Shown here in pieces: positions 35,719-39,676 of a stretch of 39,808 bases of DNA. A program made the translations under genes and the position numbers. The notes beneath the pieces were generated by a model that was not told where the DNA came from, did no database searches, and was given only the letters and a program-made list of their open reading frames with translations. The DNA is taken from the NCBI RefSeq assembly GCF_028292925.1, contig NZ_JAQGLK010000146.1:1-39808 (forward strand), in the 5' to 3' direction. Each line of letters opens with the position of its first letter. The first letter of the stretch is position 1. This stretch comes from Sphingomonas bacterium. GTDB lineage: Bacteria > Pseudomonadota > Alphaproteobacteria > Sphingomonadales > Sphingomonadaceae.

Positions 35719-36387
35719 ATGACTGCCGATCCCCTGCCGGGCTGGATCGAATCCGCCCTCGGCCACCGCCCGATCGATCCTGCCCTGTTCCGCCGCGCGC
35801 TCACCCATTCGAGCCACGGTGCGGACAATTACGAGCGCATGGAATTCCTGGGTGACCGGGTGCTGGGGCTCGTCGTGGCGACCTGGCTGTTCCAGCTGCT
35901 TCCCGACGAGCCGGAGGGCAAGCTGTCGCGCCGCATCAACGCGCTCGTCAGCCGCGAGACCTGTGCGGAGGTGGCGCGCGACATCGGCCTTGGCCCGCAC
36001 CTCCGCCTCGGCAAGCAGGCGCGGGACGATGGCGCGGCGGACAGCGACAATGTGCTGGGCGACGTGCTGGAGGCGCTGATCGGTGCGCTGTTTCTGGAGG
36101 GCGGTTTCGCCACGGCAGAAACCTTCGTTCGCCGCGCGTGGGGCAACCGCGTCGATGCCGGCCGCCGCGCGCCCCAGCATCCCAAGTCCGCGCTGCAGGA
36201 ACTGGCGGCAGCCAAGAACCTGAAGCCGCCGGTTTATGCGATGACCGGCCGCAGCGGCCCACATCATAGCCCCCTGTTCACCGTCACCGTCTCGATCGGC
36301 GGTGCCGGTGAGGCGAGCGCGGACGGTTCGTCCAAGCAAGAGGCGGAAACCGCCGCCGCCACCAAGCTCCTGGAGTCCCTGCGATGA
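35719..36387 (+). CDS. rnc: Ribonuclease III
   Basis: RNase III cleaves double-stranded RNA, including rRNA precursors. The 222-residue product has the signature ERMEFLGDRVLGLVVATWLF, the second catalytic segment DNVLGDVLEALIGALFLEGG, and a C-terminal double-stranded-RNA-binding domain (HPKSALQELAAAKNLKPPVY ... SSKQEAETAAATKLLESLR). Its end overlaps era by 4 bp (ATGA), the classical rnc-era pair. The lepB gene usually upstream is not present here; the ThDP enzyme is. Confidence 0.97.
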   Translation: MTADPLPGWIESALGHRPIDPALFRRALTHSSHGADNYERMEFLGDRVLGLVVATWLFQLLPDEPEGKLSRRINALVSRETCAEVARDIGLGPHLRLGKQARDDGAADSDNVLGDVLEALIGALFLEGGFATAETFVRRAWGNRVDAGRRAPQHPKSALQELAAAKNLKPPVYAMTGRSGPHHSPLFTVTVSIGGAGEASADGSSKQEAETAAATKLLESLR

Positions 36388-37319
36388 GCGACCAACCCGA
36401 TCTGCCGACCGATAGCGCGCCCCGGGCCGAGGAGCGATGCGGCCTCGTGGCGGTGGTCGGCGCGCCGAATGCCGGCAAGTCCACGCTCGTCAACGCGCTC
36501 GTCGGCCAGAAGGTCGCGATCGTCAGCCCCAAGGCGCAGACCACCCGCGCCCGCCTGCTCGGCATCGCGATGGAGGGGCCGGCGCAGATCCTGCTGGTCG
36601 ATACGCCGGGCATCTTCGAGGCAAGGCGCCGGCTGGACCGGGCGATGGTCGCCGCCGCATGGGGCGGCACGCAGGATGCCGATGTGATCGCGCTGGTGAT
36701 CGACGCCAAGACCGGGCTGACCGGCCGGCTGGAGCCGCTGATCGAGACGATCAAGGCGCGCCCCGAGCCCAAGATCGTCATCCTCAACAAGGTCGATATA
36801 GCGGACAAGGGCAAGCTGCTGGAAACCGCCACCCGCGTGCAGCAGGCGATCGACCCGGAAACGATCTTCATGGTCAGCGCCGCCACCGGCGACGGGGTGG
36901 CGGATCTGAAGTCCGCCCTTGCCGCGCGGGTTCCGGCCGGGCCGTGGCACTACCCGGAGGACCAGGTTTCCGACGCGACCGACCGGATGCTCGCCGCCGA
37001 GGTGACCCGCGAGCAGCTTTACCTCCAGCTCCACGCCGAGTTGCCCTACGCCAGCGCGGTGGACACGGAGAAGTATGAGGAGCGCAAGGACGGGTCGGTC
37101 GCGATCCACCAGCAGATCCTCGTCGGGCGCGATACACAGCGCGCGATCGTGCTGGGCAAGGGCGGCGCCCGCCTGCGCGAAATCGGCAGCCGATCACGCG
37201 CCCAACTGGCCGAACTGCTCGGCCGCCCGGTCCACCTGTTCCTGCACGTGAAGGTCCGCCCGGAATGGGAGGAGGACCGCACGCTCTACAAGGATATCGG
37301 CCTGGACTGGGTGGAATGA
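36384..37319 (+). CDS. era: GTPase Era
   Basis: Era is an essential GTPase in 16S rRNA maturation and 30S assembly. The 311-residue product has the G1 motif VAVVGAPNAGKSTLVNALVG, G2/G3 region KAQTTRARLLGIAMEGPAQI-LLVDTPGIFE, G4 ILNKVDIADKGKLLE, and the C-terminal KH domain HQQILVGRDTQRAIVLGKGG with VHLFLHVKVRPEWEEDRTLY. It is coupled to rnc. Confidence 0.98.
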   Translation: MSDQPDLPTDSAPRAEERCGLVAVVGAPNAGKSTLVNALVGQKVAIVSPKAQTTRARLLGIAMEGPAQILLVDTPGIFEARRRLDRAMVAAAWGGTQDADVIALVIDAKTGLTGRLEPLIETIKARPEPKIVILNKVDIADKGKLLETATRVQQAIDPETIFMVSAATGDGVADLKSALAARVPAGPWHYPEDQVSDATDRMLAAEVTREQLYLQLHAELPYASAVDTEKYEERKDGSVAIHQQILVGRDTQRAIVLGKGGARLREIGSRSRAQLAELLGRPVHLFLHVKVRPEWEEDRTLYKDIGLDWVE

Positions 37320-37330
37320 GCGCGGGCGGA

Positions 37331-38068
37331 TCAGCCGCCCAGAACCTCGTTCACCCACGCCGGCACCAGCGCGCTTGCGGCGCCGAGCCGCGTTTCCTCG
37401 AACAGCCAGCTGCCGGCTGAGGGCTCGAGGTTGAGTTCCAGCGTCGCCGCGCCATGATATTTCGCCGTCTGGACGAACCCCGCGGCCGGATAGACCGCCC
37501 CCGACGTTCCGATCGAGACGAACAGGTCGGCGCGGGAGACGGCCCGATCGATGACATCCATGCCGTAGGGCATCTCGCCGAACCAGACGATATCCGGCCG
37601 CAGTCCGCCGGCCCTGCGGCATTCCGGGCACACCGGGCCGTCGCCCAGATCCGCCGCCCACGGCATGCGCCGATCGCATGCCCGGCACCAGGCGGATTTC
37701 AGCTCGCCATGCATGTGCAGCAGCCGCCTCGCGCCTGCCCGCTCGTGCAGATCATCGACGTTCTGGGTGACGATCAGCAGATCGCCGCGCCATTCGGCAT
37801 CGAGCCGCGCCAGTGCGTCGTGCGCCGCATTGGGCGCGACGCCGGATAGCGCCGCCCGCCGCGCATCGTAGAACGCCTGCACCAGCCCCGGATCGCGCGC
37901 GAACGCCTCCGGCGTGCACACGTCCTCAACTCTATGGCTTTGTCGGGCACCATCAGAGTCCGTGTAATCCCAATAGGTTACCTGCCCTTTTGATCTGAAC
38001 GTGAGGATGCCCGACTCCGCCGAGATACCCGCGCCGGTGAGAATGACGATGTTTCGGATGCCGCTCAT
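37331..38068 (-). CDS. cobB: Sir2-family NAD-dependent protein deacylase (sirtuin) with replaced 5' end
   Basis: A 245-residue sirtuin, complete in motifs: NAD motif [14 protein letters not shown] (12-25), LIVTQNVDDLHERAGA, catalytic-His region HMHGEL, zinc ligands CRAC and CPEC, and IGTSGAVYPAAGF. FYDAR (Y67, R70) matches the Tyr-x-x-Arg of CobB/SIRT5-type deacylases. ATG 38068 is taken (a GTG lies just before). The first 48 or so codons (to HRVED, up to about 37928) use codons unlike the rest (CAT AGA GTT), and a second copy of the same N-terminal region lies at 38594-38722. The 5' end therefore appears to have come with inserted DNA. Confidence 0.93.
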   Translation of the reverse strand: MSGIRNIVILTGAGISAESGILTFRSKGQVTYWDYTDSDGARQSHRVEDVCTPEAFARDPGLVQAFYDARRAALSGVAPNAAHDALARLDAEWRGDLLIVTQNVDDLHERAGARRLLHMHGELKSAWCRACDRRMPWAADLGDGPVCPECRRAGGLRPDIVWFGEMPYGMDVIDRAVSRADLFVSIGTSGAVYPAAGFVQTAKYHGAATLELNLEPSAGSWLFEETRLGAASALVPAWVNEVLGG

Positions 38069-38092
38069 CACGCACTGATAACGGCGACCGGT

Positions 38093-38123
38093 AATGACCG
38101 GAAGTGGTGGTTAGCGGACATTG
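38093..38123. repeat. Palindromic repeat copy 1 (AATGTCCGC family)
   Basis: On the minus strand AATGTCCGC, a 12-nt centre beginning TAAC, and CCGGTCATT form an imperfect inverted repeat (7 of 9). The TAA in its centre is the stop codon of the lipoprotein gene. The 14 bp GTTAGCGGACATTG (38110-38123) recur exactly at 38593-38606. Such elements are likely dispersed REP-like repeats; genome-wide copy number cannot be seen here. Confidence 0.65.
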
Positions 38124-38551
38124 TCCGAGAGCGGCCTCGGTGGCGGCCCCGGAGGTGATCCGTCTGCCTCCCAAATGTGCAATCGTCGCTCTTCGATGCA
38201 CCAACCTTCCTCGCAGACCGCGCTCGTATCGAGCTTCCGACGTACGGCTTCCAAGGCCTCACAATCACTTGTCGGTCCGGAGATAAGAATTATGCTGGGC
38301 TTTGGACTCATGTGTTCAACAAGGGCGACAAGGTCCGAAATGACATTGAGCGGCTGATCAGTGCCATTCCACTTGACTGACTTCCCGCGCACCTCAATCC
38401 TGTTCACTCCCATTTCGAGCATCCGATATCCCGGGTCACGGAAGCTCCAGACACGCTCACGAGTCTCGCAGGCACCAGTATTCGAGTTGATACCGCACGC
38501 GGTCAATGAAGCCGCAATGGCGGCTCCGGCGAGATATCTGAGGTGCTTCAT
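38111..38551 (-). CDS. Small lipoprotein, possibly ExbD/TolR-like periplasmic domain
   Basis: A 146-residue lipoprotein: MKHLRYLAGAAIAASLTAC carries a lipobox (LTAC). The body has NRIEVRGKSVKWNGTDQPLN and a segment VEHMSPKPSIILISGPTSDC that loosely resembles the ExbD/TolR periplasmic fold; four further Cys could form disulfides. A proline-rich tail ends LSDNVR. The GC content and codon use (AGA, ATA, TCA present) differ from all flanking genes, indicating acquisition by transfer. No promoter room exists between its ATG and the upstream repeat (42 bp), so it is probably read from the sir2 relic promoter. Confidence 0.7.
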   Translation of the reverse strand: MKHLRYLAGAAIAASLTACGINSNTGACETRERVWSFRDPGYRMLEMGVNRIEVRGKSVKWNGTDQPLNVISDLVALVEHMSPKPSIILISGPTSDCEALEAVRRKLDTSAVCEEGWCIEERRLHIWEADGSPPGPPPRPLSDNVR

Positions 38552-38575
38552 GGCAGCGAGTTTACCACGTCGTGA

Positions 38576-38606
38576 AATGCCCGCTATTGGGCGTTAGCGG
38601 ACATTG
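38576..38606. repeat. Palindromic repeat copy 2 (AATGTCCGC family)
   Basis: On the minus strand AATGTCCGC, a 12-nt centre beginning TAAC, and GCGGGCATT pair at 8 of 9 positions. Its TAA terminates the truncated sir2 relic, exactly as copy 1 terminates the lipoprotein gene, so both reading frames end in Asn-Val-Arg-stop. It shares an exact 14-bp direct repeat with copy 1 at a distance of 483 bp. Confidence 0.65.
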
Positions 38607-38722
38607 GGGAAGCGCCTGTCCTCGACGCGGTGCCCCTCCCAAAGCCCCTCCGGGCCGCGGAAGGTGGCAAGCCCGCTTTCGGCCGAGATGCCGGCGCCGG
38701 TGAGGATGACGATATTGCGCAT
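38594..38722 (-). pseudogene. Truncated native 5' end of the Sir2 deacylase gene
   Basis: A 42-codon frame begins [20 protein letters not shown] and continues [15 protein letters not shown], the standard sirtuin N-terminus and more canonical than that of the intact gene downstream. After HRVED the frame reads into the repeat element (RRFPNVR-stop). GC-rich codon use matches the chromosome, so this is judged the original start of sir2, cut off by the insertion. It may still be transcribed and translated as a short peptide. Confidence 0.82.
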
Positions 38723-38908: not shown

Positions 38909-39676
38909 ATGACACGGATCGGCATCCTCGGGGCAAGCGGGCGGATGGGGCGCGCCATTGCGGCGGTCGCGGCGGAGGGCGGCATTGCGGTCGCCGGCGG
39001 CGTCGATCGGCCGGACGTTCCCAGCGAGATCGCGCCGGGGCTGAGCTTCGAGACGGACGCCACGGCGCTGGCGCGGCTCAGCGACGTGCTGGTGGACTTT
39101 TCCGCCCCCGCTGCGCTCGACGCGCATCTTGCGGCGGCGTGCGCCGCGAATGTGCCGATCGTGATCGGAACCACCGGGCTCGGCCCCGAACACCACGCCC
39201 GGATCGAAGCGGCAGCGGCCGTCATCCCCGTGCTGCAGGCGGCGAACACCTCTCTCGGCGTCAATCTGCTGGCGCACCTCGTCCGCGAAACCGCAGCGCG
39301 GCTGGGTACGGACTGGGACATCGAGATCCTGGAGATGCACCATCGCCACAAGGTTGATGCGCCGTCCGGCACGGCACTGCTGCTCGGCACGGCGGCGGCG
39401 CAGGGGCGCGGCGGCACCCTGGAAGAACTCAGCCGCTACGATCGCCTCGGCGTCGAGGCGCGGCGGGCGGAAGGCACGATCGGCTATGCATCGCTGCGGG
39501 GCGGATCGGTGGCGGGGGATCACGTCGCGATATTCGCGGCCGATGGCGAACGGATAGAACTCGGCCACCGCGCCGAAAGCCGGGCGATCTTCGCGCGCGG
39601 TGCGGTGCAGGCGGCCTTGTGGCTCGCCGGGAAACCCGCCGGGCGATACGCAATGACCGACGTGCTCGGGCTCTAG
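38909..39676 (+). CDS. dapB: 4-hydroxy-tetrahydrodipicolinate reductase
   Basis: DapB performs the NAD(P)H-dependent reduction in the diaminopimelate/lysine pathway. The 255-residue product has the nucleotide-binding start [40 protein letters not shown], and the catalytic block [20 protein letters not shown]. It ends [11 protein letters not shown], the typical DapB C-terminus. ATG 38909 follows GGAGGGCGCACGCAC; the longer upstream frame overlaps the sir2 relic promoter region. nth follows after 16 bp. Confidence 0.97.

Follow-up and report, generated by a model that had tools for sequence, protein, structure and literature searches.

Structure of the interrupted sir2 locus

We analysed a window of 39,808 nucleotides (nt) from a Sphingomonas bacterium (assembly GCF_028292925.1, contig NZ_JAQGLK010000146.1, positions 1 to 39,808; "the window" is this whole stretch), in which the sirtuin gene sir2 on the minus strand is interrupted after the codons RV by a small insert. 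The sequence GAGGAC is present in both the relic and the new gene, which sets the size of the insert at 696 nt. On one side of it, the native start of sir2 is left as a relic of 42 codons: 35 standard codons rich in guanine and cytosine (GC) and seven more, before a stop (NVR-stop) that falls within a 31-nt repeat. On the other side, an intact sir2 starts within the insert and continues into the native body. The same architecture, each time with a different insert, was found at eight further loci, and the combination of a relic and an in-frame junction at one codon is for this reason not due to chance.

The intact sir2 of the window matches PF02146 (E 1.3e-37), the relic part also matches Sir2, and the closest solved relative of the gene product is E. 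coli CobB (1s5p, E 1.2e-69). We took the ATG at 38068 as the start of the gene; the list of open reading frames (ORFs) begins at a GTG one codon upstream. The new 5′ end encodes 21 residues from FR to VED compared to 10 in the relic, so that the loop is 11 residues longer (long-loop sir2).

Most of this arrangement had been recognised in the original prediction, which was made from the sequence of the window: a sir2 gene split by a foreign segment of lower GC content, a 42-codon native relic stopping within a repeat, GAGGAC common to the relic and the working gene, restoration of the gene with a new 5′ end, and a lipoprotein gene carried by the insert. All five points were confirmed (Table 1). 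The native body is in frame with the relic and with the cassette end, and a lipobox (SLTAC) was identified by eye in the lipoprotein ORF.

Table 1. Features of the sir2 locus in the window
Feature	Position	Strand	Basis
Relic ORF: native-type sir2 5′ end entering the insert, ends NVR-stop	38594..38722	-	ORF frame; PF02146 E 1.7e-05
GAGGAC, left junction copy on the relic side, attL-like	38618..38623	-	sequence
GAGGAC, right junction copy on the new-gene side, attR-like	37922..37927	-	sequence
Cassette, 696 nt, GC 0.57	37928..38623 (equivalent: 37922-38617)	-	computed
Hairpin repeat 1, AATGTCCGCT-N10-AGCGGGCATT, contains the relic stop codon	38576..38605	-	repeat scan
Cargo: small lipoprotein gene, 146 aa, same orientation as sir2	38111..38551	-	ORF
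Hairpin repeat 2, contains the stop codon of the lipoprotein gene	38093..38122	-	repeat scan
Right-end motif of 25 nt, GCTAACCACCACTTCCGGTCATTAC, begins exactly 47 nt ahead of the new sir2 ATG	38091..38115	-	motif scan
Foreign sir2 5′ end from the cassette, codons M1-V47, GC 0.55	37928..38068	-	sequence
Extended loop after FR, 21 residues up to VED, partly predicted beta-hairpin	37931..37993	-	alignment, model
Native sir2 body, GC 0.70, in frame with the relic and with the new 5′ end	37331..37927	-	sequence
Intact sir2	38068-37331	-	ORF
era, native flank	36384..37319	+	synteny dapB - sir2 - era - rnc
dapB, native flank on the relic side	38909..39676	+	match

Recurrence of the architecture at nine loci

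A relic, a different insert and a long-loop sir2 were found together in the window, in G495 (Sphingomonas aracearum WZY 27, contig NZ_QQNB01000001.1), in Sphingomonas sp. UBA1000 and in the genomes G645, G627, G786, G680, G733 and G626. The eight loci outside the window belong to Sphingomonas or close relatives. What they share is the architecture and not the lipoprotein, for which no match was found at any of the eight. According to the original prediction, finding the new 5′ end and the relic in genomes without the lipoprotein would have spoken against an insertion. This combination was indeed found eight times, each time with other cargo in the same slot, which refines the claim of an insertion and does not refute it.

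When searching 396 genomes of the order with a profile, one further long-loop sir2 besides that of the window was obtained at E <= 1e-10. This was the gene of G495, with a standard relic located 1.45 kb ahead of it. Three loci in a collection of 84,980 species matched a strict DNA pattern of the long loop: S. aracearum, RYN_517 (G001) and Sphingomonas sp. UBA1000. In UBA1000, a relic (...HRIED) is followed by a PhyH-like gene and then by a long-loop sir2. Within the genus of G495, a long-loop sir2 was found in 14 of 201 genomes (E <= 1e-7). Seven of these 14 carry an upstream relic (G495, G645, G627, G786, G680, G733 and G626) and in the other seven (G702, G758, G641, G670, G777, G726 and G648) none was found. 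In the genus of UBA1000, the long loop occurs in one of six genomes, UBA1000 itself.

Seventy loci were classed by pattern as long (20, nine with a relic), standard (47, none with a relic) or other (3, none with a relic), with the scan for relics reaching at most 2 kb upstream of sir2. One locus, L205, is "other" by pattern and long by eye, which gives 21 long loci. When it is counted as long, relics stand at 9/21 long-loop and 0/47 standard loci (Fisher 6e-6), a comparison that is weakened by the origin of the loci, as long-loop loci came from directed searches and standard loci from general sampling.

The original prediction had also described the divergent 5′ end of sir2. This end is real, but it is not unique to the window, since the congener G001 has one at the same locus (dapB - GDT1-like gene - sir2 - era - rnc). 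Neither a relic nor the lipoprotein was found at the G001 locus, so a divergent 5′ end exists without the insert of the window. The TMEM165/GDT1-like gene between dapB and the long-loop sir2 of G001 (L002 852-1421; named by eye) is possibly old cargo whose relic is gone. The long-loop sir2 of another genome, G232 (L080 6748-7478), shows a frame change near residue 142-157 and is either a pseudogene or the result of a sequencing error.

The genome of the window (G000) was assembled from metagenomic data in 224 contigs and is 95% complete, and a chimera arising in such a fragmented assembly could in principle produce the split gene. As the same architecture is present in S. aracearum WZY 27 and several well-assembled genomes, we find this explanation scarcely credible.

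Junctions, cargo and shared ends

Removal of the insert, joining the relic to the body, restored an in-frame standard sir2 with no stop or indel at all nine loci (for G786, the relic end of which has decayed, one junction base was supplied). All nine breaks lie within the same ~20 nt of sir2, in the same codons. On the side of the new gene the core GAGGA is present at eight of the nine loci, with GAAGA in G733. Moreover, the new 5′ ends have a GC content of 0.51-0.60 and the bodies one of 0.68-0.74 at every locus. As in elements of large serine recombinases, a short identical core with a non-palindromic dinucleotide stands at both ends (GAGGAC in the window). As in elements that restore the 5′ end of their target, the nine inserts all occupy one fixed site within the 5′ portion of a conserved gene, and the frame is restored by a 5′ coding end that the cassette supplies.

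The nine inserts span 503-1600 nt. Their cargo is a lipoprotein in the window, a serine recombinase in G495, a PhyH-like dioxygenase in UBA1000 and small proteins at the other six loci, several of them membrane-like by eye and none above the Pfam cut-off. In a Pfam scan of eight cargo proteins PhyH alone passed the cut-off, and PADLOC defence annotation of five of the nine cargo proteins gave nothing convincing (best E 0.015, for the recombinase). In seven of the nine inserts the longest ORF, leaving the relic aside, runs in the direction of sir2; a longer anti-sense ORF in G680 overlaps the relic and was excluded from this count. Co-oriented ORFs stop ahead of or over the new sir2 start: in G645 and G626 stop and start overlap, in G786 and G680 the gap between them is 4 nt, and in the window, G733 and UBA1000 it is 42-52 nt. 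For the recombinase ORF of G495 this gap is 280 nt.

Parts of the cassette ends are shared as well. We scanned 462,040 positions from 16 sources on both strands for two end motifs. The 25-nt right-end motif (query from G733, up to 5 mismatches) was found at eight places, all exactly 47 nt before the ATG of a long-loop sir2 (G733, G702, G758, G641, G670, G777, UBA1000 and the window), and nowhere else in the scan. This common motif ties the cassette of the window to cassettes of other genera. The left-end motif AATCGATTATCGC (query from G645) has no mismatch in G645, one in G786 and G626 and two in G627 and G680; with at most one mismatch it occurs at three places in the scanned DNA, as many as there are left ends scoring so. 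Judged by these distinct end motifs, the cassettes fall into two or more sub-types, with G495 outside both of those recognised. Insertion at the same site thus recurs in sir2, with the frame restored, a different cargo each time and parts of the ends in common.

Exchange between relatives

Close relatives carry different DNA in front of sir2. For instance, the identity between G733 and G702 is 93% in a flank of 10.9 kb and 88% in sir2 with the new 5′ untranslated region, but the DNA between flank and sir2 (673 and 657 nt) shows no mutual match. G645 and G648 are sisters by their sir2 bodies and share 90% identity over a 4.3-kb flank, yet the encoded loop and all DNA between flank and sir2 (1.6 vs 4.5 kb) differ. 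In G648, about 4.5 kb of other DNA (L205 8318-12871) lies where G645 has relic and cargo, and the front of sir2 may be a wider insertion hotspot.

When the long label is mapped on the tree built from sir2 bodies, 8 changes are required, at least 6 of them on well supported branches; this number is approximate, because the tree labels L205 as standard. For most of 55 long-loop pairs the 5′ end is less alike than the body, a divergence to which the variable extra loop codons contribute in part. Among 60 random standard pairs, drawn from rows that include L205 and two unusual loops, similarity is higher in the 5′ end than in the body (mean +0.05). A reservoir of long 5′ ends in phages and plasmids was not recognised among the matches listed (20 of 776 and 30 of 49 records), and the strict pattern gave none in IMG/VR. 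Some rows of the alignment looked nearly gap-free through the loop; the one checked, the Sir2-like protein of phage V5, has a short loop.

The original prediction had offered homology-facilitated illegitimate recombination as one of two explanations. Transformed DNA of another sphingomonad, bearing a divergent 5′ end of sir2 together with the gene upstream of it, would have recombined within sir2 on one side, with an illegitimate junction at GAGGAC on the other. The new 5′ end is itself homologous to sir2 and mosaic relative to the bodies, the junction in the window is merely 6 nt, relic ends differ within ~20 nt, and long-loop alleles free of a relic exist elsewhere (G232, G309, G046 and G128), all of which would fit. 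However, nine different inserts at nine loci break sir2 within the same ~20 nt and all leave in-frame empty sites, which disfavours this route as the main explanation. A crossover would be likelier in the better conserved stretch upstream, whereas the same codons are broken nine times. Cargo differs each time while parts of the ends are shared, and G495 has both a dyad and a recombinase (see below). We therefore regard homologous replacement as distinctly unlikely. The second guess of the original prediction, a small non-autonomous cassette, was right in kind and the better of the two, and what it described is one member of a recurrent family of single-gene inserts docked in sir2.

A candidate recombinase and its attachment site

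The original prediction had stated that there is no recombinase. This is true of the window insert and, as far as it was searched, of the whole genome G000, in which no match was found. It does not extend to the sister insert of S. aracearum (G495), the only one with a cassette-encoded integrase. The cargo of G495 is a protein of 374 aa with Resolvase (PF00239), Recombinase (PF07508) and HTH_7 domains. A zinc ribbon gave no match in it, so that the combination of Resolvase, Recombinase and zinc ribbon is incomplete. No relative matching this protein over its full length was found in 397 family genomes, where up to four candidates per genome were scored, or in plasmids, phages and viral contigs. 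The C-terminus of the recombinase (gene at L118 7292-8416) is 84% identical to that of another frame of G495, 230 codons long (G495:C7:1055931-1056176), which suggests that the recombinase is chimeric.

In the rebuilt attP of G495, which is nearly palindromic around the GA of TCGAGG, 15 of 18 arm positions pair (0/1000 shuffles as good). In a cross-control the right arm of G495 pairs at 11-15 of 18 positions with the left arms of UBA1000, G645, G627, G786, G680 and G626, compared to ~8 for shuffles, indicating that the arm on the coding side is conserved and that the other side varies or has decayed. The codon presumed to lie in the recombinase arm is GTT in eight of nine cassettes and GCC (Ala) in the window. 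Among other valine codons GTT makes up 6/37 in the new 5′ ends (p 9e-5) and 6/123 in the bodies, where it should be considered that the arm codon was chosen after the alignment was seen and that some cassettes share alleles. Whichever enzyme is at work, this bias points to a constraint on the DNA, and at this codon DNA, not the peptide alone, seems to be conserved. The presumed form of the recombinase site is GTT..RAAAAAG.CACCGGGTC/GA, the slash marking the crossover.

Several findings weigh against site-specific docking by such an enzyme. The dyad is strong in G495 alone: in UBA1000 it is weak (11/18; 24/1000 shuffles as good), in the window it is absent (8/18; 672/1000), and for the window and six other sites 82 to 812 of 1000 shuffles were as good. 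A full-length recombinase is present in one of 16 long-loop genomes, and neither in G000 nor in UBA1000, so that the enzyme could be a mere passenger. On the relic side the core GAGGA is intact at only five of nine loci (window, G495, UBA1000, G627 and G626) and changed in G645, G680, G733 and G786; the match of the relic to sir2 ends at points spread over ~20 nt, and with such changed cores the exact break is located only to this interval. The empty site of the window is a reconstruction, without an empty site from the same species. A visible relic is missing at 12 of the 21 long-loop loci, the congener G001 among them. G702, G758, G641, G670 and G777 are near-copies in the tree, so that loci and label changes are not all independent. 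Finally, the left ends differ among cassettes, and the longest insert ORF is anti-sense in G627 and G786.

Some of these points would suit site-specific insertion by another enzyme, such as the tyrosine integrase of a phage satellite or of an integrative and conjugative element (ICE), or a resolvase encoded elsewhere, with the recombinase of G495 as mere cargo. The rarity of the recombinase among carriers, the lack of a dyad at seven of nine sites and the possibly chimeric nature of the G495 enzyme are in line with this. On the other hand, the sole strong dyad sits in the very insert that bears the recombinase and is centred on the shared core, and we hold another enzyme to be rather unlikely. 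A serine recombinase acting in trans, suggested by one member of the family, is to us the likeliest candidate for the motor.

The inserts also resemble integron cassettes in being single small ORFs, mostly co-oriented and of unknown function, and an integron integrase could have placed them at a secondary (attG-like) genomic site. Integron attC sites have the form RYYYAAC...GTTRRRY with the crossover at G/TT. By inspection, neither the attC motif nor a G/TT crossover was found at the nine junctions. The crossover bases are GTC/GAGG; GTT precedes the core on 0/9 relic sides and 2/9 new sides. Paired motifs in G495 (GTTAGA...TCTAAC) are in the opposite order to those of attC, and no array was seen in the stretches inspected. 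This origin is thus very improbable.

Lipoprotein cargo and hairpin repeats

Relatives of the window lipoprotein are distant only, in 18 of 298 family genomes including G000 (best 28%, E 3.7e-12), and none was found in plasmids, phages or genome_contigs. We had considered the lipoprotein as the key to a mobile element, and this was rejected: no relative was found in plasmids, phages or genome_contigs and those in 17 family genomes other than G000 are weak, so that the element is not defined by its cargo. A match of the lipoprotein (38111-38551) to RMMBL (E 0.0017) is below the Pfam cut-off and probably due to chance.

The repeat AATGTCCGCTAAC has two exact copies in the window genome, both within the insert, and is a member of a sphingomonad hairpin family without an Rfam match. 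The strict family pattern in Sphingomonadaceae, ATGTCCGCT-N10/11-AGCGGACAT, matches 8/199 genomes. Hairpins lie within 300 nt in 5/18 loci of the lipoprotein family, and their density is 13 in 59 kb of lipoprotein loci vs 4 in 195 kb of sir2 loci, with one in the reversed control. In G168 (L106, G168:C1:366000-385000) over a dozen copies lie within 19 kb, with small genes between them, one of which is a lipoprotein relative. The repeats flank the cargo of the window and one is also present in the insert of G733; a scan of the other seven inserts gave none. Hairpin repeats were for this reason rejected as cassette borders and are treated as baggage of the cargo.

Effect on the sirtuin

The AlphaFold (AF2) model of the window sirtuin, based on an alignment of 4 sequences, has a mean confidence score (pLDDT) of 75.6. 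Its best PDB matches are CobB structures (template-modelling score, TM, 0.71; root-mean-square deviation, rmsd, 8.1); the high rmsd limits this to a broad likeness. The protein combines a match to the Sir2 deacylase family with a CobB-like fold. Strands are modelled at residues 32-36 and 42-46 of the extended loop, and the loop is lengthened in all nine cassettes. In Sir2 enzymes this loop closes over nicotinamide adenine dinucleotide (NAD). A longer loop may change the deacylase, in its binding of NAD or of acyl-lysine, so that acquisition of a gene may also re-tune the enzyme.

Discussion

Site-specific docking in sir2 is well supported. We consider it probable that a family of small site-specific cassettes docks in the 5′ part of sir2 in Sphingomonadaceae and that a serine recombinase moves them in trans. 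Read from left to right, a cassette would begin with a short left end, continue with a single cargo gene, in most cases co-oriented, and finish with a new 5′ end for sir2 that has its own start codon. Recombination would take place at ...GTC/GAGGA... (codons RVED) within sir2, the serine recombinase exchanging strands at the GA core; an enzyme of this kind is the cargo of one cassette. The native promoter and the first ~35 codons would stay behind as a relic that soon stops, and the 5′ end borne by the cassette would be joined in frame to the native body. Judging from orientation and spacing, the cargo may be transcribed from the old sir2 promoter, as in a promoter trap. Translation of sir2 would start anew from the cassette; at loci where the stop of the cargo overlaps the start of sir2, the two genes would be translationally coupled. 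The lengthening of the loop is probably the price of a recombinase half-site that lies within coding sequence.

The principle of restoration is already known from SXT in prfC and IMEVchUSA3 in dusA. The original work on ICE SXT/R391 and prfC is reportedly that of Hochhut and Waldor 1999. These elements disrupt the 5′ end of a gene and supply a promoter and an N-terminus (PMC8409611, PMC10866021). ICE SXT/R391 likewise inserts site-specifically in the 5′ end of a conserved gene, but appears there as a large conjugative element with its own tyrosine integrase (PMC10866021, PMC8409611), whereas the sir2 cassettes measure 0.5-1.6 kb, hold one cargo gene and mostly lack a recombinase. The islands of the IMEVchUSA3/dusA type are many-gene, mobilizable and equipped with an integrase, and exchangeable single-gene cassettes are not described in the accessible text of PMC8409611. 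In these systems the element that restores a disrupted gene is large and encodes an integrase of its own. The unit at sir2 consists of a single gene and the repaired start of its dock, and sister species carry different DNA in nearly identical flanks.

Elements of large serine recombinases (PMC10083194) share with the sir2 cassettes an attB within a host gene, an identical centre of attP and attB and, in G495, an enzyme with Resolvase and Recombinase domains. They differ in that only one of nine sir2 inserts carries the enzyme, which is of 374 aa with HTH_7 and no zinc-ribbon match, and in that the host gene is restored. The main text of PMC10083194 does not mention sir2. In prophage HK022, inserted element DNA also alters a neighbouring host gene, torS being driven by transcription from a phage promoter; unlike the sir2 cassettes, a new protein end is not mentioned for torS in the abstract of that source (PMC6814406). 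No report of sir2 as a cassette dock was found in the open-licence literature, judged from titles and the starts of abstracts.

Integron cassettes are the closest functional analogy. They are small promoterless units with a single ORF, inserted at one dock and probably read by a resident promoter, and the sir2 cassettes would resemble them in all these respects. Unlike in integrons, the dock is a housekeeping gene, each cassette carries the end that repairs it, and no array was seen. We tentatively raise the possibility of a hitherto unrecognised cassette platform, in which a serine recombinase would shuttle promoterless single-gene cassettes, each with a replacement sir2 start, and a living gene would serve as attI. 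If true, this would be a second bacterial system of cassette capture besides integrons, with a ready promoter and built-in repair, the cargo being read from the sir2 promoter while sir2 survives with a remodelled cofactor loop. The sir2-docked cassettes differ from known systems in their size, single exchangeable cargo, usual lack of a recombinase and target, and there is a real chance that they deserve a category of their own.

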